Assembly (NCBI GenBank): GCA_021324075.1
Contig: JAJPJW010000209.1
Span: 1 to 32,721 of the forward strand
Origin: Pseudomonadota bacterium
GTDB taxonomy: Bacteria > Oederibacteriota > Muellerivitia > Muellerivitales > Muellerivitaceae
DNA: 32,721 nt
Direction of reading: 5' to 3'
The notes under the pieces were generated by a model. That model was not told where the DNA came from and did no database searches. It saw only the letters and a list, made by a program, of their open reading frames with translations. Position 1 is the first letter of the stretch. The number at the start of each line of letters is the position of its first letter. Below are positions 10,987 to 24,475 of the stretch, piece by piece. The position numbers and the translations under genes were made by a program.

Positions 10987-11008
10987 AAGGTCCCCTTCCG
11001 GGAACCTT
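10987..11008. terminator. Hairpin shared by convergent phosphoesterase and EAL genes
   Basis: AAGGT (10987-10991) pairs with ACCTT (11004-11008) and CCC (10993-10995) with GGG (11000-11002), with one mismatch between them and a TTCC loop. It overlaps the stop codon of the EAL gene and has no T tract. It could be a bidirectional stop or only an mRNA end structure. Confidence 0.3.
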
Positions 11009-12293
11009 ATTGGCCCGGATCGACGCTCAAGGATTCGGTGTTGATGTCCAGGCAGAGGATGTACTTCTTGCGGTCCACGTTCTTGAAGACCGAGGACAGC
11101 GTCACGCAGTTGTTGCCCGAGGCCATGGAGAGATAGGGCTCGGTCAGGTAGCTGGTCTTGTTCAGCCCCGATTCCATCAGGAAATAATAATAGTCCTTGA
11201 AGTTGTGGTCCGAGCCCTTGGGGCTCGGCTTGAAGACCACCGGGTTGCGGTGGGGCTTGAAGTTTTTACTGAAAATGCTTTCCGTCACCTGGATCCCCGA
11301 CTCATCCAACACATAGATGTTCTCCACGCTGGGCAGGCGCTCCACCATCCGCTGCAGGATCAGGTCGAAATGGATGGGGTGCATTTCCCTCAGTTCCATC
11401 TGGATCTCGAAGAGGTAGGCGTAAAAGCGGTTCATGTTGAACTTGCGCACGCCCAGCCGCCCCAAGAGGTGTTTCTTGAAGGCTTCGCCCAGGTCGCCGA
11501 CCTTTTGCAAGACGGCCTCTTTTTCCAGGCGGTCGTGGCGCTGGGGCTTGGCGAAGTAATAGCCCTGGACCAGGTCCACGTCGATGTCCAAAAGGTGCAG
11601 GGCCTCCGCCTCGGTCTCCACGCCTTCGGCGATGATCAGGGTCCCCAACTGGCGCGCCATGCCGACGAGGGACTTCAGGACCTGTTGTTTGTAGAAATCC
11701 TCGTGGATTCCCTCGACCAGGAAGCGGTCGATCTTGAGGATGTCGGGCTTGATCAGGGGGATTCGGTTGAGGTTCGAATGGCCCGCTCCCACGTCGTCCA
11801 AGGCGATCAGGAAGCCGTAATTGCGGTAAAGCTTCACGAAACGCTGCAGTTCCTTCAGGTCCATCACTTCCGATTCGACGATCTCGATGGCGATGTTCTG
11901 GGGTTGGAGCCCCATTTCATAGACCTGTGTGCGCAGATGGCCCGATCCCGTCACACCCTGGTCGAAGATGGCCGTGTTCAGGTTGAGGGAAAGCACCAGG
12001 TCGGGCGTGAGGCTGTGGATCATCCGGAAATCGTCCAGGGCCTTGTGGCGGCAGAGGCGGTCCAGTTCCACTTCCAGGCCCTGCTGGGCCGCTTCATGGA
12101 AAAGGTCATGGGGGGGAATGAGACCGCGGGAAGTGGGATGGATGCCCCGGCTGAGGCCTTCCAGCCCCACGATGGAGCGCCGTTTGAGCGAGACAATGGG
12201 CTGGAAATGGGGTTCGATCCATTTCCCGTCGATGATTTCACGCAGGTTGAAAATAGCCGGTTGGGCGCCTTGAGTCAGTGTGCCTTTATCCAT
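11007..12293 (-). CDS. EAL-domain c-di-GMP phosphodiesterase with YkuI-like C-terminal sensor domain (copy 1)
   Basis: 428 residues, no membrane segment. The EAL domain fills about residues 20-255. The signature is EGL (45-47) instead of EAL. The residues known to be needed for catalysis are all present: E45, N104, E137, D166 and D167, K187, E223 and Q243. It should therefore hydrolyse c-di-GMP to pGpG. Residues about 275-428 form a PAS/Cache-like domain (contains MNRFYA, YVLDESGIQVTE, KDYYYFL, TEPYLSMASG) resembling the C-terminal domain of Bacillus YkuI, so activity is probably set by a cytoplasmic signal. The ATG has GAAGGAG 7 bases upstream. It is a gapless paralogue of the next gene, and both share an upstream element (12343-12376 here). 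Confidence 0.88.
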   Translation of the reverse strand: MDKGTLTQGAQPAIFNLREIIDGKWIEPHFQPIVSLKRRSIVGLEGLSRGIHPTSRGLIPPHDLFHEAAQQGLEVELDRLCRHKALDDFRMIHSLTPDLVLSLNLNTAIFDQGVTGSGHLRTQVYEMGLQPQNIAIEIVESEVMDLKELQRFVKLYRNYGFLIALDDVGAGHSNLNRIPLIKPDILKIDRFLVEGIHEDFYKQQVLKSLVGMARQLGTLIIAEGVETEAEALHLLDIDVDLVQGYYFAKPQRHDRLEKEAVLQKVGDLGEAFKKHLLGRLGVRKFNMNRFYAYLFEIQMELREMHPIHFDLILQRMVERLPSVENIYVLDESGIQVTESIFSKNFKPHRNPVVFKPSPKGSDHNFKDYYYFLMESGLNKTSYLTEPYLSMASGNNCVTLSSVFKNVDRKKYILCLDINTESLSVDPGQ

Positions 12294-12545: not shown

Positions 12546-13832
12546 CTAACCTGCGTTTTCGTCGCCCAGGGCGTGCGTGTTGACGTCCAGGCAAAGGATG
12601 AACCGTTTCTTTTCCTCATTCATGAAAAACGAAGAGATGGTGACACAACCCGTCCCCGACGCCATAGAAAGGTGGGGTTCGGTGACATAACTGCCTTTGC
12701 TGGAGCTGGGGTCCATGAGGGAAAAATAATAATCCTTCATCGTGTGGTTCGAACCCTTTGGAAAGGGTTGGAAGACCACCGAACGGCGCCGGGCGTGGCC
12801 GTTGCCGTTGAAGAAATATTCCGAAACCTGGGCCCCCTCTTCATTGAGGACGAAGGCCCCTTCCACGAGGGGGGACCTCCCCACGATTCCCTTCAGGGCC
12901 CCGTCGAAATGGGCCAGGCCCTTCATGCGCAGTTCCATTTGGGCTTCCATGATCATGGCGTAAAAACGGTTCATGTTGAACTTGCGCACGCCCATGCGCT
13001 TGAGGAAGGTCTTCTTGAAGGCTTCACCCAGCCCCTCGATGCGGTCTGTCACCGCCTTTTTCTCCAGGAGCGCACGGCGCTGGGGACGGGCGAAAAAATA
13101 ACCCTGGATCATGTCCACGTCCATGTCCAGCAGGAAAAGGGCTTCTTCCTCGGTCTCCACCCCCTCGGCGATGACCAGGGTGCCCAGGCGGCGGGCCATG
13201 TTCAGGAGGGAGCGCAGGACCTCCTGCTTGTAGAAGTCCCTTTGGATGTCCTGCACCAGGAAACGGTCCACCTTCAGGATATCGGGCTTGATGAGGGGGA
13301 TGCGGTTGAGGTTCGAATGCCCCGCCCCCACGTCGTCCAAGGCGATGAGGAAGCCGTGCCCCCGGAAGTTTTCCACGAAACGCTGCAACTCCTTCACATC
13401 CTCCACTTCGGACTCGATGACCTCCAGGGCGATATGCCCCGGCTCCAACCCCAATTCGGCGACCTGGCGTCCCAGGTGGTCCTGCCCCTGCACTCCTTGG
13501 TCGAAAACGGAGGAATCCAGGTTGATCGATAAAAAGAAATCGGGGGATTCGGCCACAACCTGCCGGAAATCATGCATAATTTTTGTCCGGCAAACCCGGT
13601 CCAGGTCCGCTTCCAGGCCCTGGATCATGGCCTGGTGGAAAAGTTCAGTGGGGGGGATCAGTTGGCGGGTGGCGGGGTGAAGTCCCCGGCTCAGGCCTTC
13701 CACGCCGATGATGGAGCGGCGGTTTAAGGAAACAATAGGCTGGAAATGGGGCTCCACCAGGCCGCCCTCAATGATCTCGCGCAGGTTGAAGGCGGGTGGT
13801 TTGGAAACAAGCGGGTGCTTTTCCGGGTCCAT
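12546..13832 (-). CDS. EAL-domain c-di-GMP phosphodiesterase with YkuI-like C-terminal sensor domain (copy 2)
   Basis: 428 residues, exactly as long as copy 1, and alignable to it from end to end without gaps; well over half of the residues are the same by eye, including one identical run of 28 residues around the DDVGAG motif. Catalytic residues are kept at the same positions (E45 in EGL, N104, E137, D166/D167, K187, E223, Q243). The first 15 residues and the sensor domain (residues 275-428) differ most, so the two copies probably answer to different signals or levels of one signal. ATG 13832 has GAGGAG about 5 bases upstream. No GGDEF domain or diguanylate cyclase is nearby. Confidence 0.88.
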   Translation of the reverse strand: MDPEKHPLVSKPPAFNLREIIEGGLVEPHFQPIVSLNRRSIIGVEGLSRGLHPATRQLIPPTELFHQAMIQGLEADLDRVCRTKIMHDFRQVVAESPDFFLSINLDSSVFDQGVQGQDHLGRQVAELGLEPGHIALEVIESEVEDVKELQRFVENFRGHGFLIALDDVGAGHSNLNRIPLIKPDILKVDRFLVQDIQRDFYKQEVLRSLLNMARRLGTLVIAEGVETEEEALFLLDMDVDMIQGYFFARPQRRALLEKKAVTDRIEGLGEAFKKTFLKRMGVRKFNMNRFYAMIMEAQMELRMKGLAHFDGALKGIVGRSPLVEGAFVLNEEGAQVSEYFFNGNGHARRRSVVFQPFPKGSNHTMKDYYFSLMDPSSSKGSYVTEPHLSMASGTGCVTISSFFMNEEKKRFILCLDVNTHALGDENAG

Positions 13833-15235: not shown

Positions 15236-15249
15236 GAAAGAGAAGCTTT

Positions 15250-15286
15250 GCCCTCTCCCTGATAGGGAAGGTCGGGCTGAGGGGGA
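15250..15286. repeat. Short C/G-rich hairpin repeat fragment
   Basis: TCCCT-GAT-AGGGA forms a small stem (15256-15268) flanked by CCCTC and a GGGCTGAGGGGG tail. Read on the minus strand the order (CCCCCTCA, then a C-rich run, then the hairpin) is like each half of the element at 8179-8280. It is probably a single degenerate member of the same kind of repeat. Confidence 0.4.
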
Positions 15287-15336
15287 AGAAGAATCAAAAG
15301 ATAGGCCGAAGGGCTTGGTTCCATTATCTTAGGCGC

Positions 15337-16524
15337 ATGAAACCCTATGACGTCATCATCCTTGGGGGCGGCGCGGCGGGCCTGATGTGCGCCCGTGAAG
15401 CCGCCGCGCGGGGCCGGAAAGTCCTCGTCTTGGAGCAAAACCCCAAACCTGCCCCGAAGATCCTGGTTTCCGGAGGCGGCCGCTGCAACTTCACCAACCT
15501 CCACGCCACTCCGGCCAACTATGTCACGACGAATCCCTCTTTCGTCCCGGCCGTCTTCTCGCGGTTCACCCCGAAGGATTTCATCGCCCTGGTCCAATCG
15601 CGGTCTATTCCCTACCACGAAAAGAAGGACGGCCAGTTGTTCTGCGACAAGAGCGCCAAGGATATCATCGAACTCTTGGTCACCCGGGCCGGCGAAAAGG
15701 GTGTGCAAATCCTGCTGGGACAAAAGGTGGGAGAGATAACCCATTCGGAAGACTCTTTTATCATCCGCTCAAGCGAAGAAATCTTTTCAGCCCAGCGGCT
15801 GGTAGTCGCCACCGGGGGATTGTCCTGGCCCCAACTGGGCGCTTCCGACCTGGGCTTTAAAATCGCCAACCAATTCGGCCTGAAAATAATTAAACCTTCC
15901 CCCGCCCTGGTAGGGCTGGCCTTCCCGGAAAGGGAAATGGACCGCTTCAAGGATTTGGCGGGTATCCACCTTCGCGTAGGCGTTTCCTGCGGGGATTGGA
16001 ACCTGGTGGAAGACCTCATGATCACCCACAAGGGGCTCAGCGGCCCCGTGATGCTCAACGCTTCCCTTTATTGGAATCCGGGGCAGGAAATCACGGTCAA
16101 CTGGGTGCCCGAATTCACCGTTGAATCAACCTATGACCAATTGAAGAAAGACAGGGCCGCGGGAGGCCGGGGCAAGTTCCGCGTCTGGTTTTCCGAGCGC
16201 ATCCCCCGCCGGCTGGCCGAACGCATCGCCTGGAATGCCGAAGCCCGGGGAGCTTGGTCAGCCCTTTCCGATGAACGGCTTTTGGCCCTGGCCCGTGACA
16301 TTCATGCCTACCGCTTCATTCCGGCCGGCACTTTCGGCTACCGGATGGCCGAGGTGATGAAGGGCGGCGTGGACACCCGGGAGATTTCCCGCGAGACGAT
16401 GGAAGCCAAAAAAGTACCCGGCCTCTTTTTCATTGGTGAGGTGCTGGACGTAACGGGGCAACTCGGTGGGTTTAATTTCCAGTGGGCCTGGGCCTCGGGT
16501 TTTGTGGCCGGCCAAGCCGTTTAA
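15337..16524 (+). CDS. BaiN/HI0933-family FAD-dependent oxidoreductase
   Basis: 395 residues. Flavoprotein with an N-terminal dinucleotide-binding motif GGGAAGL (10-16) and the family hallmark SGGGRCNFTN (45-54); the C-terminus has FFIGEVLDVTGQLGGFN, the second FAD contact. Family members include BaiN, reported to act in bile-acid dehydroxylation, and RdsA; most are of unknown substrate, so no specific reaction can be given. The frame is open upstream to 14782, antisense to the livK-like gene, but the FAD motif begins 10 residues after ATG 15337 as in relatives, so this start is preferred. It is divergent from livK and convergent with the DHFR-like gene. Confidence 0.88.
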   Translation: MKPYDVIILGGGAAGLMCAREAAARGRKVLVLEQNPKPAPKILVSGGGRCNFTNLHATPANYVTTNPSFVPAVFSRFTPKDFIALVQSRSIPYHEKKDGQLFCDKSAKDIIELLVTRAGEKGVQILLGQKVGEITHSEDSFIIRSSEEIFSAQRLVVATGGLSWPQLGASDLGFKIANQFGLKIIKPSPALVGLAFPEREMDRFKDLAGIHLRVGVSCGDWNLVEDLMITHKGLSGPVMLNASLYWNPGQEITVNWVPEFTVESTYDQLKKDRAAGGRGKFRVWFSERIPRRLAERIAWNAEARGAWSALSDERLLALARDIHAYRFIPAGTFGYRMAEVMKGGVDTREISRETMEAKKVPGLFFIGEVLDVTGQLGGFNFQWAWASGFVAGQAV

Positions 16525-16542
16525 AAAGGCCGGACGACACGC

Positions 16543-17097
16543 TTATTTCTTTGCCGGCTCGTAATAAAGAACCACGGCACCGGAGCCGAACGTTTCTGTT
16601 TTTAAGAGCTTGAGGTCGATTCTCTCCTTGATGTCCTTGAACAATGTCAGACCATTTCCCAAAAGGATCGACATAAGGCCGATTTGGAATTCATCGACCA
16701 GGCCAAGTTGCGCGAAGGCGACGATCAAACTGCGGCTCCCAACCAGGATGTTTTTGCCCTTTTGCCGCTTGAGCTTCAAGATTTCCTCTTTATCGATCTT
16801 CTTTTTCAACGTTGAGTTTTTCCATACGACGTCTTTCAACGTTCGGGAATAAACGATTTTCGGGATGTTGTCGATCAATACCGCGAATTCATTCTCCACT
16901 TTACCGCCGTTACGGTTTTTTGCGACAGATGGCCAGAAGCTTTCCATCAGTTGGTAGGTCGTCCTCCCGTAGATGAGGGTGTCCGCGTTGCTTAAGAGGT
17001 CGTTGTAATGTTGGTGCAATCCCTTGGCCGGGACCATGGCCGTGTGGTCGCAAAATCCGTCCAGTGTCATATTCAACGCCGCGATCAGTTTTCTCAT
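16543..17097 (-). CDS. Dihydrofolate-reductase-like protein (RibD C-terminal domain family)
   Basis: 184 residues. Begins MRKLIAALNMTLDGF, as in the stand-alone RibD_C/DHFR-like family, with LIYGRTTYQLMESFWP at 41-56 and a late ILVGSRSLIVAFAQLGLVDEF plus LLGNGLTLF segment, all typical. Probably an NAD(P)H-dependent reductase; substrate unknown. ATG 17097 is preceded by GGGGGAG with a 6-base spacer, so the in-frame TTG at 17112 is not needed. It is transcribed away from a tetR gene, and the shared 69-base gap holds an operator-like palindrome over its predicted promoter, so it is probably the regulated target. Its base composition is clearly more AT-rich than its neighbours, which suggests recent acquisition. 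Confidence 0.85.
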   Translation of the reverse strand: MRKLIAALNMTLDGFCDHTAMVPAKGLHQHYNDLLSNADTLIYGRTTYQLMESFWPSVAKNRNGGKVENEFAVLIDNIPKIVYSRTLKDVVWKNSTLKKKIDKEEILKLKRQKGKNILVGSRSLIVAFAQLGLVDEFQIGLMSILLGNGLTLFKDIKERIDLKLLKTETFGSGAVVLYYEPAKK

Positions 17098-17126
17098 GAA
17101 AGACTCCCCCAAAATTGGTTTTTAAA

Positions 17127-17146
17127 ATTGTACCATTCAGTACAAT
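17127..17146. promoter_or_regulatory. TetR operator candidate
   Basis: Perfect inverted repeat ATTGTAC-6-GTACAAT, two 7-bp arms, placed between the divergent DHFR-like and tetR genes. It covers the -10 box of the promoter toward the DHFR-like gene and lies just upstream of the tetR -10 box. Size and position fit binding by the neighbouring TetR-type protein. Confidence 0.7.
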
Positions 17147-17154
17147 CAATTCAA
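17127..17154 (-). promoter_or_regulatory. Promoter of the DHFR-like gene
   Basis: On the minus strand TTGAAT (17149-17154), 16-bp spacer, TACAAT (17127-17132). The -10 box is the left arm of the operator palindrome, so repressor binding would block this promoter. Confidence 0.55.
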
Positions 17155-17155
17155 G

Positions 17156-17161
17156 TATAAT
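17156..17161 (+). promoter_or_regulatory. -10 box of tetR, near-leaderless
   Basis: Perfect TATAAT with only 5 bases between it and the ATG at 17167. Transcription would start at or next to the A of the ATG. No convincing -35 hexamer at normal spacing and no Shine-Dalgarno sequence is seen. Confidence 0.5.
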
Positions 17162-17166
17162 GAGCC

Positions 17167-17760
17167 ATGGCCAAATCCGACACCCGTCTCAAAATGATTC
17201 AAACGGCCGCCGACCTTTTCCACCGGCAAGGCGTGAACGCGACCAGCGTCGACCAGATCCTGGCCAAATCGGGGACCGGCAAAAGCCAGTTTTCGCACTA
17301 CTTCAAAACCAAGAACGGCCTCATCCAAGCCTCGCTCAAATACCTGCATGAGATTGTCCGCGAAGGCAAAACACCCACCGGCTACAACGTCAAAACTTGG
17401 AAGGACATGGAACAGTGGTTTCAGAAATATATTGATTTTCAGAAGTCGGTCGATTTTGAGCGCTCTTGCCCCATCGGTACGATCGGCAACGATATTTCGA
17501 GCGGTCAACCTTATTTGCGAAGGGAGGTCATCGCCTTTTTTGAATGGGGCCGTGGCCAGCTGGTCCAATTTTTCGGGGATCGGAAGACGGCAGGTGAATT
17601 AATCCCGGAAGCCGACCCGGAAGCCTTGGCCGACTTTTGCATTTCGATCATGGAAGGCGGAATGTTATTAACGAAAATGCAGGGCAACACCCACATGTTC
17701 GAAAATGCCGCAAAACAAGCCCTTGCCCACCTAAAGAGTCTCCGTAAAAAGAAGACCTGA
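17167..17760 (+). CDS. TetR-family transcriptional repressor
   Basis: 197 residues. N-terminal TetR helix-turn-helix at about residues 7-55: AADLFHRQGVNATSVDQILAKSG, then GKSQFSHYFKTKNGL. The ligand domain contains FERSCPIGTIGND (residues about 97-109), a pattern common in the YxaF/AcuR-like TetR branch, in which a Cys-Pro lies near the ligand pocket. A small electrophilic or quinone-type ligand is possible but not shown. It is divergent from the DHFR-like reductase and probably represses that gene and itself through the palindrome at 17127-17146. The -10 box is placed so that the mRNA would start at or near its ATG. AT-richer than its neighbours. Confidence 0.88.
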   Translation: MAKSDTRLKMIQTAADLFHRQGVNATSVDQILAKSGTGKSQFSHYFKTKNGLIQASLKYLHEIVREGKTPTGYNVKTWKDMEQWFQKYIDFQKSVDFERSCPIGTIGNDISSGQPYLRREVIAFFEWGRGQLVQFFGDRKTAGELIPEADPEALADFCISIMEGGMLLTKMQGNTHMFENAAKQALAHLKSLRKKKT

Positions 17761-17831
17761 GCGTCCCGCCTTTTTTCCTGTTTAATTCACATCCCCGCCG
17801 TCACAGGCCGGGTAAAAAATTTCCGGCAGGG

Positions 17832-19166
17832 CTACCTTCCGTCGAATTCCACCACCAGCCGGTCCGGGAAGGGGCCGTCGTAATGGATCTGGCCTTCCTC
17901 GCCCGGTGCCCGGCGCAGGCCCTTCAAGGCGACGACGCTTTTCAAAAGGGCCGGCACCTGGACCCGGTTGATGGGTTCGCCGAAACAGCGGTGTTGCCCG
18001 TAGCCGAAAATAATGTAGGACTCGTAAGGCCGGTCGGTCCGGAATTCCTCCGGGTGGGGGAAGACCTCCGGGTCCATCATGCCGCCCAGGGTCATGGCGA
18101 AAACCTCGCTTCCCGCGGGGATCAGCGCCTGGCGCGGCGTGCCCGCCGCCAGGGTGTAATCCTTCTCGCAATGCCGCAGCAGCAGGGGGTTCAAGGGGTG
18201 GAACCGGAGCGCCTCGAAGACATAGGCCGAAAAGAGCGCGTCGTTCCCCGCTAAGGCGGCCTGGCGGGCGCCTTCCAGTTGGTCGGGCCTCTTCAAGAGC
18301 TCGTCCAGGGCCTGGGAAGCCGCCGTGCAGGTCGTGTCCACCGCCCCCACCACGACCCCGCCGACGTTGCGGCCGACCCCTTCGTCGTCCAGCCGGGTCT
18401 CGGGCTGGGCCTGCAGCGCCAGCAGGCGGGTCAGGAAATCGTCCGGCGCCCGGCCCTGGGCCATCAGGGCCTTGCGGGCCATGATCCAGGAACCCAAATA
18501 GGCCTTCATTTCGGCGGAGGATTGTTCGGCCGCCTGGGCCACCTGGGGGTCATTGGAGAAGTTGAGGAAGATTTCCCAGAAGATGGTCCTCATCCATCGC
18601 ATCTGGGTGGGCTCGTCGGGCCCCGGCACGCCGAAATAGCGGGAAACCAGGCGGGCGGGCACCTGGCGGAAAAGCCCGCCCGCCACGTCCATCCGCCCCT
18701 GGGGCAGGGCCTGGGTGATGATCGCCTCCGTGGATTCCCGGTCGAACTCCCGGATGCGGGCGAAGTCGTCGGGATGGATGGCCGCGTGCAGGATGCCGGC
18801 TTCCCGGCGGTATTGGGGGGTGTCTTCCATGCCCAGGATGAAATCCCCGCTGGTGCGGCGCATCTTGTCGGCATAGATGGAAGCGACGGTGAAGTTGCCG
18901 TTCGCCTTGAGGACCTCCAATACGTCGGCGTATTTGGTCACAAAGGCCTTCTGGCCCACCACCAAGTTGGGGCGCAGGCGCTGGAGGTCCTCCAGGAGCA
19001 TCCGCAGGACTTCGGGCCGGGCGATCCAGGCGGCGATTTCTTTTTTCACCATCTCGGCCAGGTTGGAAAGGTCCTGGAGCAGCTTTTCACCCTCGCGGAA
19101 GGCCCCGCGGAAAAAGCCGGCCAACTCCCCTTCGGCTTCGTGAAGCTTGTCGGAAAAGGAACCCAC
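17832..19166 (-). CDS. Cytochrome P450
   Basis: 444 residues from GTG 19166. Heme-thiolate monooxygenase fold. The heme-binding loop is FGYGQHRCFGE with C394; the K-helix motif is EALR (318-321); the I-helix has GAVDTT (274-279), with an acidic residue and Thr as in oxygen-activating P450s. No membrane anchor and no fused reductase; no ferredoxin or ferredoxin reductase is in the window, so its electron source is unknown and use of peroxide is possible. AGGAGGTG (19171-19178) lies just before GTG 19166; the in-frame TTG at 19181 would overlap this ribosome site and is rejected. It is the third gene of an operon, close behind the DyP peroxidase. Substrate unknown. Sequence is distant from classic bacterial families as far as I can recall. 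Confidence 0.9.
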   Translation of the reverse strand: MGSFSDKLHEAEGELAGFFRGAFREGEKLLQDLSNLAEMVKKEIAAWIARPEVLRMLLEDLQRLRPNLVVGQKAFVTKYADVLEVLKANGNFTVASIYADKMRRTSGDFILGMEDTPQYRREAGILHAAIHPDDFARIREFDRESTEAIITQALPQGRMDVAGGLFRQVPARLVSRYFGVPGPDEPTQMRWMRTIFWEIFLNFSNDPQVAQAAEQSSAEMKAYLGSWIMARKALMAQGRAPDDFLTRLLALQAQPETRLDDEGVGRNVGGVVVGAVDTTCTAASQALDELLKRPDQLEGARQAALAGNDALFSAYVFEALRFHPLNPLLLRHCEKDYTLAAGTPRQALIPAGSEVFAMTLGGMMDPEVFPHPEEFRTDRPYESYIIFGYGQHRCFGEPINRVQVPALLKSVVALKGLRRAPGEEGQIHYDGPFPDRLVVEFDGR

Positions 19167-19187
19167 GGAACACCTCCTCAAGGAAAA

Positions 19188-20633
19188 CTAAAGCTGGGAA
19201 AAGTACTGGATCGCCCGGATGCCCGGGAGGAAAAAATAAGCCCCGCCCCTCACCTTCACGAACCGGGCCATCCCCGAGAGCACCTGGCGGTAATGGCCCT
19301 GGGGAATCACCATCTGGCTGGAGGCGGTGCCGTCATTGGCGCCCACCACCGGGTCCTTGCCGTCGGAGAGCCCGTCGAACTTGGGATTGTTCAGCCAGGT
19401 TTGTTGGATGAACTCGAACTGCCGGCTAATGTTGGCGTTCAGGCAGATGAAAAGCAGGCCCCTTTCCCCGGGGGCTTCCTTGACCTGGAGCGGGTGGTCG
19501 ATGTAGTCGCCGTAAGGGCGGCCCCGCCGTAAAATGCGGTGCCGGTTGACCATGGTCAGGGATTTTTGGCGCTCATCCTCGTTCTGCACCCCGATGTTGT
19601 GGAGCGAATCCCGGGGGTTGGCCCGGCGGATATGGGATCCGACCGGGCATCTCAGGCCCTGGTCGTCCGTGGAGTTGTATTGGAAGTCGTTGCGGGGCTG
19701 GTAATTTTTTTGCCTCTCGCCTTCGTCCTGCTGGGGGGAAAGCTCCAGGGGCGCCCCGCTCGGCCAGCGGCCCACGCTTTTGGAGGCCAGGTAGTCGGCA
19801 CTGGCCTTTCCCGTGGGGTTTCCCCGTTTGTCCGCCTCCCCCTTGAAATAGTTCCAGAACCCAAGCACGTCCTGGGCCAGTACCCGGAAGACCAGATAGG
19901 TGCCGTTGCGGCCCAGGTCCTTGCGGGAATCCTGCGGCGAAGCCACGGGCAGGATATTTTGAGGGTCCTTTGAGGCGGGCAGGAGGGGCGAAAGGGGGAT
20001 CTTGGAGAACTGGTTCTCATAGCCCAGGATGAAATCCCCGGCCTTGATCTCCGCCACTTCGCCGTTGAGCGGCTGGCCTGTGCCCTCCACGACCGGTTGG
20101 GAGATGCCGTCGCGGAAGCCGAAATGTTCCTTGTTGTCGTCCCGCTTCAGGCCCTCCTGCTGGAAAACCACCTTGAGGCCCGACGAGGCGAACACCGTTT
20201 CTTGTTCCAGGGCCAGCTTTTCCAAGTCGGCCTTATTCCCCGCGTAGACCATGAGAAGGGCGTGCACTTCCTCGTTGTTCGGCCCGCCCAGGGCCCAGGT
20301 ACCCGGTCCGCTGTCCTCCGTATCCCCCAGGACACGGGCCTTCTGGGGATCGGCCATGCCCTGCTGGAACTCGTCGGAAAAATAAAGCCCATAGTCCTCC
20401 GAAAGTCCCAAGACCCGGGTGCCCCGGTAGGTCAGGGCCAGGTTGAGGGCGCTGGCAGGCGCCGGTTTCTGGCGGAATTGGGCGGCGGTGGCGACGGCCT
20501 TTGCCGTCTTCCCCATCCAGGCCTTGGCCAGGGCGGGTTCCTCGATTTTCAGGAAAAAGTAACGGGAGGCGGGCAGGTGGTCGTAACCGTCCAGCAGGAT
20601 GCCCTGGATATCCTTGAACTCGAGGCCGGCCAT
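19188..20633 (-). CDS. DyP-type heme peroxidase
   Basis: 481 residues. Two ferredoxin-like halves. The hallmark GxxDG motif is present as GFRDGISQP (172-180) with D175 as the peroxide-activating acid; the proximal heme ligand is H334 in CPVGSHIRRANPRD; the distal arginine region is NRHRILRRGRPYG (363-375). All catalytic residues are kept. There is no Tat or Sec signal and no encapsulin-targeting tail that I recognise, so it is probably cytoplasmic. The length and the insertions around 181-320 fit the larger (class C/D or V) DyPs. AGGAGG lies 4 bases before the ATG. It is the middle gene of the operon: 32 bases after the two-repeat membrane protein and 21 bases before the P450 start. Confidence 0.93.
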   Translation of the reverse strand: MAGLEFKDIQGILLDGYDHLPASRYFFLKIEEPALAKAWMGKTAKAVATAAQFRQKPAPASALNLALTYRGTRVLGLSEDYGLYFSDEFQQGMADPQKARVLGDTEDSGPGTWALGGPNNEEVHALLMVYAGNKADLEKLALEQETVFASSGLKVVFQQEGLKRDDNKEHFGFRDGISQPVVEGTGQPLNGEVAEIKAGDFILGYENQFSKIPLSPLLPASKDPQNILPVASPQDSRKDLGRNGTYLVFRVLAQDVLGFWNYFKGEADKRGNPTGKASADYLASKSVGRWPSGAPLELSPQQDEGERQKNYQPRNDFQYNSTDDQGLRCPVGSHIRRANPRDSLHNIGVQNEDERQKSLTMVNRHRILRRGRPYGDYIDHPLQVKEAPGERGLLFICLNANISRQFEFIQQTWLNNPKFDGLSDGKDPVVGANDGTASSQMVIPQGHYRQVLSGMARFVKVRGGAYFFLPGIRAIQYFSQL

Positions 20634-20665
20634 GCTTCCTCCTTAAAAAAATCAGGGCAAAGCCC

Positions 20666-21955
20666 TTAAAACCGGGCGAGCCAATTTTCGGCCTCGGTGG
20701 GGGACAGGGTCCCCTCCAGGCCCTCGCGGATGGCGACGTTGTTGAAGATGTTGCGCACCGATTCCTGCGCGTGGGCGCTGTACCAAAACTGGGTTTCGAT
20801 CTGGTGCCGCCGGGTCCAGCCCTTGAACTCCTCCTCATAGGCCGCGCCGCTCTGGAAGAGGCCGACCAGGAACCAGGTCTTGGGGAAATTCAGGGTGTTG
20901 CTCCATACGCCCGTCAGGCCCGCGTTGGCCTTGTCGATGAAATCCCCCAGGTAGCTTTCCCAGCTTCCGTCGAAATTGCTCATGAAAAGAACGCGCCGGC
21001 TTTCCCGCAGGATGACCCACCGGGCGAAGTGGATGCTGGGGATGCCGCCCAGGTCCCCCTTGTTGAAGCAGATCTTGGCCAGCAGGTTGATGCCCCAGAA
21101 GACGAGCCGCAGCAGGTGGAAACGGAGCGGCCCGGGCTTGATGCGGACGATGTGGGTCAGCTGGTTCTGGACGATCCGGTCTTCCACGCGGACCAGCTCC
21201 CCTGAGCCGTTGAAGGGCGTGGGCGGGTCGGCCGGGTCCATGATTTCCTTGAGCCGCAGGTAAAGCAGGAAGACCACCAGTAGGGCGAGCAGACTGTAGT
21301 CCAGCCGGGGGTCCCACTGGTAAAGCGCGACGGCCAGGGCCAGCAGGGCCAACCCCGCCAGGAGGCCGATCCGGTTTAAGTCGATCGAAAAAGGTTTTTT
21401 CACCACCGGGAGCAGGGGTTCTTCCTTCAAACCCTCTGCCCGGATACTCGCGTAGGGAAGGCTGGAAGCGCCCTGGTCCATCCCCAGGAGCTTCTCGATC
21501 CTTTCCCGGATGCGCGTGTTCTGGCGCACCTTCTCCAGGGTCTGGCCGCGGTAGGCGATATAGAAGGCTTCATAAGGGATGGAGCGTTGATCGATGAAGG
21601 AACGGAAGGCCGGATAGTCCTTCACGCCCCCGTCCGGGTAGCCTTCGCAATGGCCCCAAATGCGGTCCAGGGCCGGGCCGCCGATGTCGATCATCTCCCG
21701 GAGGTGGCCGTCCAGGTCGCCGTCGTAATTGCTCTCAAAGGCCAAAAGGGGGTCGTCCTGGTCCCCCGTGTCCACGTCCACTCCGTCGATCACGATGAAC
21801 CGGCAGAAGTGGATCAACCTGGATTTCCCCAGGGGAAGCTGCGGGTTGGTCTCCGGATTTTCGCCCATCCCCCGCAGGAAAGTCTTGAGGCCCTCCAGGC
21901 TGGAGGAATCCTGCGCGCGAAGGGGGGCGATCACGGTGAGGGCTTTTTGATCCAT
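20666..21955 (-). CDS. Unknown two-repeat membrane protein, first gene of the DyP-P450 operon
   Basis: 429 residues, no named family recognised. It consists of two related soluble modules on either side of a membrane hairpin. Module 1 (about 45-158) contains LIHFCRFIVI, FESNYDG (73-79) and YIAYRGQTLEKVRQNTRIRE. Module 2 (about 305-412) contains SIHFARWVIL, FMSNFDG (324-330) and YSAHAQESVRNIFNNVAIRE. The order and spacing are the same, so the gene arose by internal duplication. Two strong hydrophobic segments (about 194-213 and 219-235) lie between them; a further hydrophobic stretch is near 279-295. Strand-helix order with the SNxDG turn suggests a ferredoxin-like fold, possibly distantly related to the DyP fold (inference). 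Transcribed from a good promoter at 22019-22047. May anchor the DyP and P450 at the membrane or serve as their partner. Confidence 0.7.
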   Translation of the reverse strand: MDQKALTVIAPLRAQDSSSLEGLKTFLRGMGENPETNPQLPLGKSRLIHFCRFIVIDGVDVDTGDQDDPLLAFESNYDGDLDGHLREMIDIGGPALDRIWGHCEGYPDGGVKDYPAFRSFIDQRSIPYEAFYIAYRGQTLEKVRQNTRIRERIEKLLGMDQGASSLPYASIRAEGLKEEPLLPVVKKPFSIDLNRIGLLAGLALLALAVALYQWDPRLDYSLLALLVVFLLYLRLKEIMDPADPPTPFNGSGELVRVEDRIVQNQLTHIVRIKPGPLRFHLLRLVFWGINLLAKICFNKGDLGGIPSIHFARWVILRESRRVLFMSNFDGSWESYLGDFIDKANAGLTGVWSNTLNFPKTWFLVGLFQSGAAYEEEFKGWTRRHQIETQFWYSAHAQESVRNIFNNVAIREGLEGTLSPTEAENWLARF

Positions 21956-22018
21956 GGTTGTCTTTCATACGAACGGCCCGATAGTCTCAAATGACGGGAA
22001 AAGTTTTCGAGTGCGGTT

Positions 22019-22047
22019 ACTATATCGGCCGCAACAAGGGGGGTCAA
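22019..22047 (-). promoter_or_regulatory. Promoter of the two-repeat protein / DyP / P450 operon
   Basis: On the minus strand TTGACC (22042-22047), ideal 17-bp spacer, TATAGT (22019-22024). Transcription would start near 22012, giving a leader of about 57 bases. The next 100 bases upstream are AT-rich and hold no gene. Confidence 0.65.
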
Positions 22048-22149
22048 TTTTTCACTGGTAACTTTTACGGAACGAAAATGGTTTTAATGTTGTGACGTGA
22101 AACCACTCGGGGCGGATTTAAAATTGCACAAGAAATTACCGATTCAAAA

Positions 22150-24366
22150 TCACGTCTTAAGCCGGTAAAGCCTAAGCGCGTTCAAAATCACCGTCACGGA
22201 GGAAAGGGACATGGCCAGGGCCGCCAGGGCCGGCGGCACTTGGAAAAAGACGGCGAGGGGAAGGGCCACCAGGTTGTAGGCGAAGGCCCAAAAGAGGTTC
22301 TGCCGGATGATCTGGAACGTCGCCCTCGAAAGCTGCAGGGCCTCAATGACTTTGGGAAGACCGCCCTGCACCAACACCATGTCGCCCGCTTCTTTGGCCG
22401 CATCCGTGCCGGACCCCATGGCGATGCCCAGGTCCGCCGCGCTCAAGGCCGCCGCATCGTTGTAACCGTCCCCCACCATGGCGACCCTGAGGCCTTGCCG
22501 CTGAAGGCCCCGGATGTAATCCAGTTTGCCGCCCGGGTCCATTCCGGCCTTCACCAGGTCCACCCCCACCCTTTCGCCCACCTTTTGCGCCACCACTTCC
22601 CCGTCGCCGGTCAGGAGGTGCACCTTCAGGCCCAACCCCCGCAGTTTCTGGATGACGTCCCTCGAATCGGCATGGGGCGGGTCCTCCATGACCAGGATGG
22701 CGCTGATCCTGCCGTCCAAAGCCATGAGGGAAACGGTCTGGCCGCCCTGCCGGTAGGCCTCGATATTGGCGCGGACCTGGGGGGAGGGGACGATCCCCTC
22801 GAGGGATTCGATGAAGGCCTTAGTGCCGATGGCGACCTGGTGGCCTTCCACCATGCCTTGCAACCCCGCGCCGGGCGTTTCCACCACCCGCTCGGCCGAC
22901 GGCACGACCATGTCCAACACCATGATTTCCTTCAGGATGGCCGAGGCCAGGGGGTGGTTGGTGCCCATTTCGAGGGCCGCGGCGTAGCGCAGCAGCTTGG
23001 CTTCCTCCAGCCCGTCGAGGATCATCATGTCCACCAGCCGGGGTTTGCCCTCGGTCAGGGTCCCCGTCTTGTCGAACACCATCACGTCCACGCGGCTGGA
23101 CTTTTCAAGGGCTTCCGCCCGGCGGATGAGGATGCTTCGCTTGGCCGCCACCCCGATGCCGACCATCAGGGCGATGGGAGTGGCCAGCCCCAGCGCGCAG
23201 GGGCAGGCGATGACGAGCACTGCAATGGCGTGGCTAAGCCCCGTTCCCCAAGGGCGGCCCGCGGCGAAAACCCAGCCCAGGACTGTCGCCAGGGCCAGGC
23301 CCAGGACCACTGGCACGAAGACGGCGGCCACCTTGTCGGCGGTCTTTTGCACCGGGGCCTTGGACCCCTGCGCCTCCTCCACCAGCCGGATGATCCCGGC
23401 CAGGGCCGTTTGTTCGCCCACTTCCCGGGCCTTGAGGTTGAGGGTGGTGGTGCCGTTCAGGGTTCCGGCGAAAACCTTGTCGCCCGGGCGTTTCTCCACC
23501 GGCATGGGTTCGCCGGTCAGGAGCGACTCGTCCACCCGCCCCTTTCCTTCCAATATATAGCCGTCCACGGGGATGGCCTCGCCGGGACGGACGCTCAGGT
23601 TGTCACCCACCACCACCATCTCGACCGGCAGGTCCACTTGATGGGTCTCCTTAAGTACATGGGCGATGCGCGGCCGGAGGTTCATCAACAGTTCCAAGGC
23701 CCGGTTGGCCCGGCGCTTGGAAAGGATTTCCAGGTACCGCCCCAGGGTGACGAAGAAGAGAATCAATCCCGAGGCGTCGAAATAGGTCTCCACCGGGTAC
23801 CGGGCCAATGCCGGTAGGGAGCAGAAATAAGCTGCGGAGGAACCCAGGGAGATGAGGCTGTCCATGGTCACCTCCCCGTACCTCAGGCCCTTCAAGGCCG
23901 CCTTGTGGAAAGGCCAGCCCACCACGAAAAAAACGGGGGTGGCCAGGAAAAACTGGACCAGGGGGGAGAGGGTGAAAGGCTTGAACGCCATTAGGAGATG
24001 TTCGGCTAAAAAGGGCAGGACGAGCAGCCCGGCCAAGACCAGTCGCCACCCCATCTGGTGCTGGTCGGCCTCGTAGAGGCGGGCGGCTTGGGGCTGGGGG
24101 GAATAGGGTTTGGCCGAATAACCGGCCTTTTCGACCGCCGCTTCCAAGGCAGGGACGTTGGGGGACGCTTCGGTCTGCACGTAGGCTTTTTGGGAGGCGA
24201 AATTGACGGCGGCGTTCTTTACGCCGGGGACGGTCTTCAGTTTCCGTTCGATGCGGGCCGCGCAGGAGGCGCAGGTCATGCCTTCCACGGCCAAGATGAC
24301 CGATTGGGGCTCTTTTGGCTCTTGAGTAGGCGCTTGAAGAGGAGTTTCAACAGTGTTTTGTTGCAT
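22150..24366 (-). CDS. copA: Copper-exporting P1B-type ATPase CopA
   Basis: 738 residues. Pumps Cu(I) out of the cytoplasm. One N-terminal heavy-metal-associated domain with GMTCASC (C32, C35), eight predicted membrane helices, the ion-site motif CPC (388-390), the dephosphorylation motif TGE (284-286), the phosphorylation site DKTGT (D432), the nucleotide-site NHPLA, and the hinge GDGYND. The pattern with CPC and late-helix NLVALPLAV and [15 protein letters not shown] fits the Cu(I) P1B-1 group. ATG 24366 has AAGG 5 bases upstream. It follows copZ on the same strand, separated by a 112-base gap that is almost wholly an AT-rich palindrome (24384-24475). No CsoR or CueR regulator gene is in the window. 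Confidence 0.95.
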
Positions 24367-24383
24367 TTGGGCCTTAGAAATTC

Positions 24384-24475
24384 TGAATTCTTAATTCTCA
24401 ATTTTTAATTAATGGCATTTTCGCTCTACAAAAATCACCATAATTTAAAATTCAACATTCAAAATTAAAAATTCA
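24384..24475. repeat. AT-rich imperfect palindrome (MITE-like) between copZ and copA
   Basis: The left arm TGAATTCTTAATTCTCAAT (24384-24402) pairs with the complement of TGAATTTTTAATTTTGAAT (24457-24475) at 16 of 19 positions. The homology continues inward with a short bulge (TTTTAATT..ATGG..ATTTT on both sides), so the whole gap folds into one long hairpin. It begins just after the copZ stop (minus strand). It is far more AT-rich than the genes around it. AT-rich palindromes of this sort are dispersed elements in many genomes. Confidence 0.7.

Follow-up and report, generated by a model that had tools for sequence, protein, structure and literature searches.

The window, a stretch of 32,721 nucleotides (contig JAJPJW010000209.1 of assembly GCA_021324075.1), contains a tight minus-strand operon in which three open reading frames, coding for a protein here called X, a DyP-type peroxidase and a cytochrome P450, are transcribed in that order. 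The features of the operon and its surroundings are as follows:

20666..21955, minus strand: gene X, an open reading frame of 429 aa for a two-repeat membrane protein without a family name
21476..21955, minus strand: X repeat 1, residues 1-160 (secondary structure of the model, alignment A3)
21239..21379, minus strand: X transmembrane hairpin, residues 193-239 (model helices 193-214 and 221-239; hydropathy peaks)
20669..21184, minus strand: X repeat 2, residues 258-429 (alignment A3, model)
19188..20633, minus strand: DyP-type peroxidase, 481 aa (TIGR01413 over cut-off)
17832..19166, minus strand: cytochrome P450 (PF00067, 82.7 bits; likely start GTG 19166)
22019..22047, minus strand: promoter-like site TTGACC-17-TATAGT upstream of X (consensus match)
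17167..17760, plus strand: TetR-type regulator, convergent with the operon (PF00440 and PF16925)
15243..22161, no strand assigned: variable block (operon, TetR gene, RibD_C gene, 170-aa gene), missing from the same site in congeners

The gaps between the three genes are short, as an earlier note on this DNA had described: 32 bp between X and the peroxidase gene, whose ATG is preceded by AAGGAGG, and ~21 bp between the peroxidase and P450 genes, counting from the P450 GTG at 19166. This GTG is a likelier start than the listed TTG at 19181 because a strong Shine-Dalgarno sequence, GAGGAGG, lies ahead of it at 19173-19179. The one good promoter that the note placed upstream of X is present, matches 10 of 12 consensus positions and is the best of 4 matches in 5.6 kb; since shuffled sequence is expected to yield 1.2 ± 1.2 matches, the site is suggestive only. 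The convergent TetR-type gene is a candidate, from its sequence, for the operon's regulator.

The ~6.9 kb block that holds the operon lies between a gene that ends near 15242 and codes for a branched-chain amino-acid binding protein and a copper ATPase gene that occupies the other side from 22162 on. In one congener (G001) the counterparts of positions 15242 and 22162 are ~40 bp apart, and in a second (G002) the two flanks are likewise close together; the block was therefore either gained here or lost there. Different genes occupy the site in a third congener (G005). Synteny with congeners on both flanks rules out a contaminant contig, and X had no match in any other searched genome of the source's small phylum. 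An anti-phage defence system was ruled out, as PADLOC gave no match; neither a biosynthetic cluster nor a lipase or fatty-acid gene adjoining the operon is seen in the window. Elsewhere in the window, two adjacent EAL-domain proteins of 428 aa each (11007-12293 and 12546-13832) are apparently a tandem duplication, and a short dispersed repeat (24379-24474), apparently palindromic, is present dozens of times, in either orientation, both in this genome and in those of its relatives.

DyP peroxidases are widespread, and the physiological substrate is known for few. The window protein, the one DyP detectable in the genome, scores 104.4 bits against TIGR01413 (cut-off 100.5), with Dyp_perox_C over the Pfam cut-off and DyP_N just under it; its closest solved relative is 8re3 (E 1e-58). 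It retains the Asp of the GXXDG motif (D175, in GFRDG), the proximal His (H334, in GSHIRR) and, downstream, the distal Arg (Arg369/370), and no signal peptide is evident in its sequence. The P450, the only one in the genome, keeps the haem-thiolate Cys399, the ExxR motif (E323/R326) and the acid-alcohol pair D282-T283; the description of both enzymes as haem oxidases with their catalytic residues was thus accurate.

X had no match over cut-off in Pfam and none in NCBIfam, Pfam families of the ABM clan gave no match to it at E <= 1, and phmmer matches to ricin chains (E 0.15 or worse) were due to chance. An AlphaFold (AF2) model built from 52 sequences is confident (pLDDT 86.8, pTM 0.87) and bears out the two-repeat membrane protein of the earlier note: two beta-alpha-beta-beta-alpha-beta (ferredoxin-like alpha+beta) units are separated by a two-helix membrane hairpin. 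The best solved matches found by Foldseek were WhiE-ORFI (9lmn) and Abx(+)O (9ltx), at E 5e-5, with modest TM-scores against ABM-type structures (0.31-0.55). As modelled, the fold of X is a tandem ABM-type alpha+beta barrel, so that the note's "no known family" holds at the level of sequence and not of fold; a degenerate DyP was ruled out, as Foldseek returned ABM-type structures and not DyP. Tandem ABM or SchA-CurD-like proteins, among them the two best matches, have two ABM-type ferredoxin-like domains as X does, but X has no sequence match to them, carries a membrane hairpin and invariant residues of its own, and has haem oxidases, not PKS genes, as its neighbours.

The invariant residues of X in alignment A3 are His49 (strand beta-2) and Asp78 in repeat 1, His309, Trp313, Asn327, Ser331-Trp332 and Tyr335 in repeat 2, and also Arg382. 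His49 and His309 occupy equivalent positions on strand beta-2 of their respective repeats, and siroheme decarboxylases, members of the same superfamily, have their haem-binding His on beta-2 (PMC4835899); the likeness, drawn by analogy, is a lead and not a test. Such a histidine in each repeat would suit a membrane protein that binds or handles haem and loads the DyP and the P450, a role that we consider highly improbable. Other members of both enzyme families are not known to require a haem loader of their own. At three loci (L008 4157-5396, L009 4953-5426, L010 4728-5363), the DyP has next to it a short form of X that consists of one repeat and lacks the membrane hairpin; two of these loci also carry a catalase-like gene, and the short form is possibly the ancestral one.

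Relatives of X numbered 332 in a scan of species genomes, and the best 80 loci, which span about a dozen phyla, were studied; this sample includes close relatives (Mesorhizobium, Mucilaginibacter), and the counts therefore overstate independence. A DyP adjoins or is fused to X at 78 of these best 80 of 332; of the two exceptions, one is at a contig end (L053) and the other has transposase genes at the expected place of the DyP (L036). A P450 of one distinct clade is found beside or fused to X-DyP at 43 of the 80, and none is nearby at the other 37. Single P450=X=DyP proteins, all without a reductase domain, account for 19 of the 43, followed by a P450 and then an X=DyP fusion (9), P450-X-DyP (8), X-DyP-P450, the order of the window (6), and one locus with genes in opposite direction. 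An independent DyP=P450 fusion occurs at L166. In a quick tree, fusions and gene orders are scattered among branches far from one another, and the fusions arose in several ways, as P450=X=DyP, X=DyP and DyP=P450. The linkage at 78 of 80 loci together with the fusions rules out a chance cluster: X, DyP and P450 are a real recurrent unit, and the 43 loci with all three strongly bear out that the proteins stay together in other genomes, the point that the earlier note had proposed to check. Counted by genome, X is present in 12 of 327 Acidobacteriota, the clade P450 in 7 and both in 5 (Fisher p 5e-7, with genomes taken as independent of kinship), and the single X-bearing genome among 395 Bacteroidota is also the single one with the clade P450. 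A structure model of a fused X-DyP (pTM 0.57) was discarded as too poor to show contacts.

From these locus counts, X and DyP are the core of the unit, and the P450 is an optional third enzyme, for which a catalase-like protein can substitute. A catalase-like gene takes the place of the P450 at three of the 80 loci, and X-DyP stands alone at the remaining ones, a little under half of the 80. At four further Acidobacteriota loci (L162-L165), X-DyP is accompanied by a catalase-like protein and a GMC oxidoreductase, with an additional FAD_binding_4 oxidase at L162 and L165; all four also encode a conserved protein, 146-149 aa long, that belongs to no family. Catalase-related allene oxide synthase and hydroperoxide lyase resemble the catalase-fold third partner (L032, L051, L162-L165) at the family level only, and the distal Thr of the catalase-like proteins was dropped as a mark of allene oxide synthase because this residue is given as common to catalase (PMC5617202). 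At L003 (968-2731), L006 (1059-2747) and similar alphaproteobacterial loci, the P450-X-DyP fusion gene has immediately upstream of it a regulator-like gene, annotated as adenylate/guanylate cyclase or SARP, and a cluster of neighbouring ORFs is common to 20 alphaproteobacterial P450-X-DyP fusion loci.

The P450s of this unit are recognizable as a group: in X-bearing genomes, matches to the P450 query (P0001) were bimodal (E < 1e-57 or > 1e-22), and the closer matches make up a clade of their own (quick tree, 98% SH-aLRT), distinct from the generic P450s that these genomes also encode. Clade copies without X nearby occur in seven genomes (G064, G093, G074, G105, G625, G577, G825), that of G577 being a remnant in which the start of a di-heme gene is joined to the end of a P450. 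One ORF at L154 (6632-7468), in which ~118 residues from the start of a di-heme cytochrome are joined to the last third of a P450, is apparently a deletion remnant of a di-heme-P450 operon. The acid of the I-helix acid-alcohol pair is Pro in all 21 aligned fused P450s; most unfused ones, that of the window included, keep [DE]T, and some have DN, EP, ST or PQ. The acid-alcohol pair is missing from peroxygenase P450s (PMC10988616), and CYP152 fatty-acid peroxygenases are driven by peroxide without redox partners, the chemistry proposed below; the fused relatives have lost the acid, but the window P450 keeps D-T, and its best solved relatives are of the MycG/PikC type.

No ferredoxin or reductase gene is seen in the window, as the earlier note had stated, and a motif scan found no convincing ferredoxin adjacent to the P450 at the 43 related loci; the operon thus differs from those of class I ferredoxin-dependent P450s. 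A single 112-aa 2Fe-2S ferredoxin is encoded elsewhere in the genome, on contig C135. The note had suggested that the DyP and the membrane protein replace the usual redox partners of the P450. The idea is supported in part: linkage, partner switching and the fact that many relatives have lost the acid-alcohol pair agree with it; the D-T pair kept in the window and the ferredoxin elsewhere do not, and because X-DyP is found without a P450 at 37 of the 80 loci, it is more than a stand-in for the redox chain of the P450. These findings also bear on a P450 working as an H2O2 peroxygenase whose peroxide the DyP and X merely manage: tight linkage and fusion of the genes, the altered acid-alcohol pair of the fused P450s and the lack of an adjacent ferredoxin would all fit, yet DyP-X evidently has a job of its own where no P450 accompanies it, and with the D-T pair of the window also against it we regard this reading as distinctly improbable. 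The D-T pair and the ferredoxin together make O2/NAD(P)H monooxygenase chemistry possible for the window P450. The P450 could accordingly be an ordinary monooxygenase fed by that ferredoxin, with DyP-X acting in the same pathway (for example, natural-product tailoring) and not feeding the P450, and the closeness of the X fold to polyketide ABM/SchA-like proteins points the same way. We nevertheless hold this to be unlikely: the P450 is repeatedly fused to X or DyP, no P450 fusion to a redox partner was seen among the related loci, the window lacks a biosynthetic cluster, and sister P450s pair with haem proteins of dioxygenase type.

These sister P450s, on rhizobial and Methylobacterium plasmids, belong to the same clade (31-37% identity). 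Those of R. etli and S. medicae adjoin a COX-like peroxidase, which in R. etli matches prostaglandin synthase 2 at E 5e-57, and those of B. barranii and Methylobacterium adjoin a RoxA-like di-heme cytochrome; the B. barranii locus also has a gene for oleate hydratase nearby. At L168 (991-9152), on a Bradyrhizobium plasmid, oleate hydratase, RoxA-like di-heme cytochrome and P450 genes lie close together on one strand. The CXXCH motifs of the sister-locus di-heme cytochrome are 236 aa apart; the spacing is 245 in the fatty-acid 10S-DOX of P. aeruginosa, 235 in its 7,10-DS and 199 in RoxA (PMC4496055), and by this measure the protein is closer to the P. aeruginosa enzymes than to RoxA. Genes for class-3 lipases (Lipase_3) adjoin three X-DyP-P450 sets. 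Taken together, the COX-like and di-heme partners, the oleate hydratase and the lipase neighbours point to fatty-acid peroxides; none of them is found in the window itself.

The reading that we favor, at a little short of an even chance, is that X, DyP and P450 form a membrane-attached, cytoplasm-facing module that oxidizes a lipophilic substrate in peroxide-driven, oxylipin-like chemistry. The hairpin of X would anchor the set at the membrane, and its two alpha+beta barrels, with their invariant His, Trp, Asn and Tyr, would receive a substrate or a tetrapyrrole, the likeliest substrate being a fatty acyl chain or a hydroperoxide of one. The DyP, driven by H2O2 or a lipid hydroperoxide, would make or process an oxidized lipid together with X, this pair being the part of the module that generates or uses peroxide. 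The P450, or in other clades the catalase-like protein, would then rearrange or use the peroxide, in the manner of the fungal dioxygenase-P450 pairs, so that the electrons need not come from NAD(P)H redox partners. The coupling and fusion of the genes, the folds, the catalytic residues and the swapping of partners are shown by the analysis; the membrane side, the lipid substrate, the use of peroxide and the sequence of steps are inferred. Partner switching and the many relatives that have lost the acid-alcohol pair make peroxide-type chemistry plausible. Against the module stand the D-T pair of the window P450 and the ferredoxin elsewhere in the genome, the 37 loci without a P450 and the lack of an adjoining lipase or fatty-acid gene in the window; the COX-like and di-heme partners, moreover, are linked to the sister P450s and not to that of the window. 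With the same set of partners, DyP, P450 or catalase-like enzymes could instead serve in stress defence by reducing or isomerizing hydroperoxides of the membrane that X holds, and a catalase-like third partner would suit such detoxification; a patchy distribution (one of 395 Bacteroidota) and the neighbouring lipases hint at a specialized metabolite pathway more than at a general response to stress, which makes it rather improbable. More specifically, within peroxide-driven lipid oxidation, X-DyP might be a new type of lipid dioxygenase: compound I of the DyP would generate a radical in the membrane-anchored tandem barrel, which would capture O2 on an acyl chain, the linked P450 or catalase-like protein converting the hydroperoxide. 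This is unlikely in our estimate; if true, X-DyP would be a third, independent type of bacterial oxylipin synthase.

By analogy, the module seems to be a bacterial counterpart, so far undescribed, of the fungal and animal peroxidase-P450 pairs that make lipid signals; in the open literature searched, neither a DyP-P450 fusion nor the X family was named. Fungal dioxygenase-P450 fusions join a haem peroxidase-type domain to a P450 and act on fatty-acid hydroperoxides without an electron-transport chain (PMC13049297). The linoleate diol, epoxy alcohol and allene oxide synthases of this group (PpoA type) resemble the window set in combining a haem peroxidase with a P450, but here the peroxidase is a DyP, a membrane barrel protein is added as a third component and the P450s are of bacterial type. 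The module is not a member of the fungal group because the COX-like haem dioxygenase domain is missing, such a domain being found only beside sister P450s. The oleate 10S-DOX and 7,10-diol synthase of P. aeruginosa (RoxA-like FadCcp) constitute a two-step bacterial hydroperoxide pathway, and di-heme proteins of this kind adjoin sister P450s; the pathway differs in its c-type haems and in having no P450 described, and its di-heme protein has no counterpart in the window. If the favored module is correct, one group of DyPs would gain, through its dedicated membrane partner and the fused P450s, a role open to direct test. The haem-peroxidase-P450 hydroperoxide chemistry of fungi and animals would then reach into many phyla of bacteria, and P450s that may need no redox partners would become available as a new set. 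On two rhizobial plasmids, the P450 gene is directly followed by that of a cyclooxygenase-like (prostaglandin synthase-like) peroxidase (L171 7905-10804, L172 7917-10834), a pair that is a bacterial analogue of the fungal dioxygenase-P450 pair.
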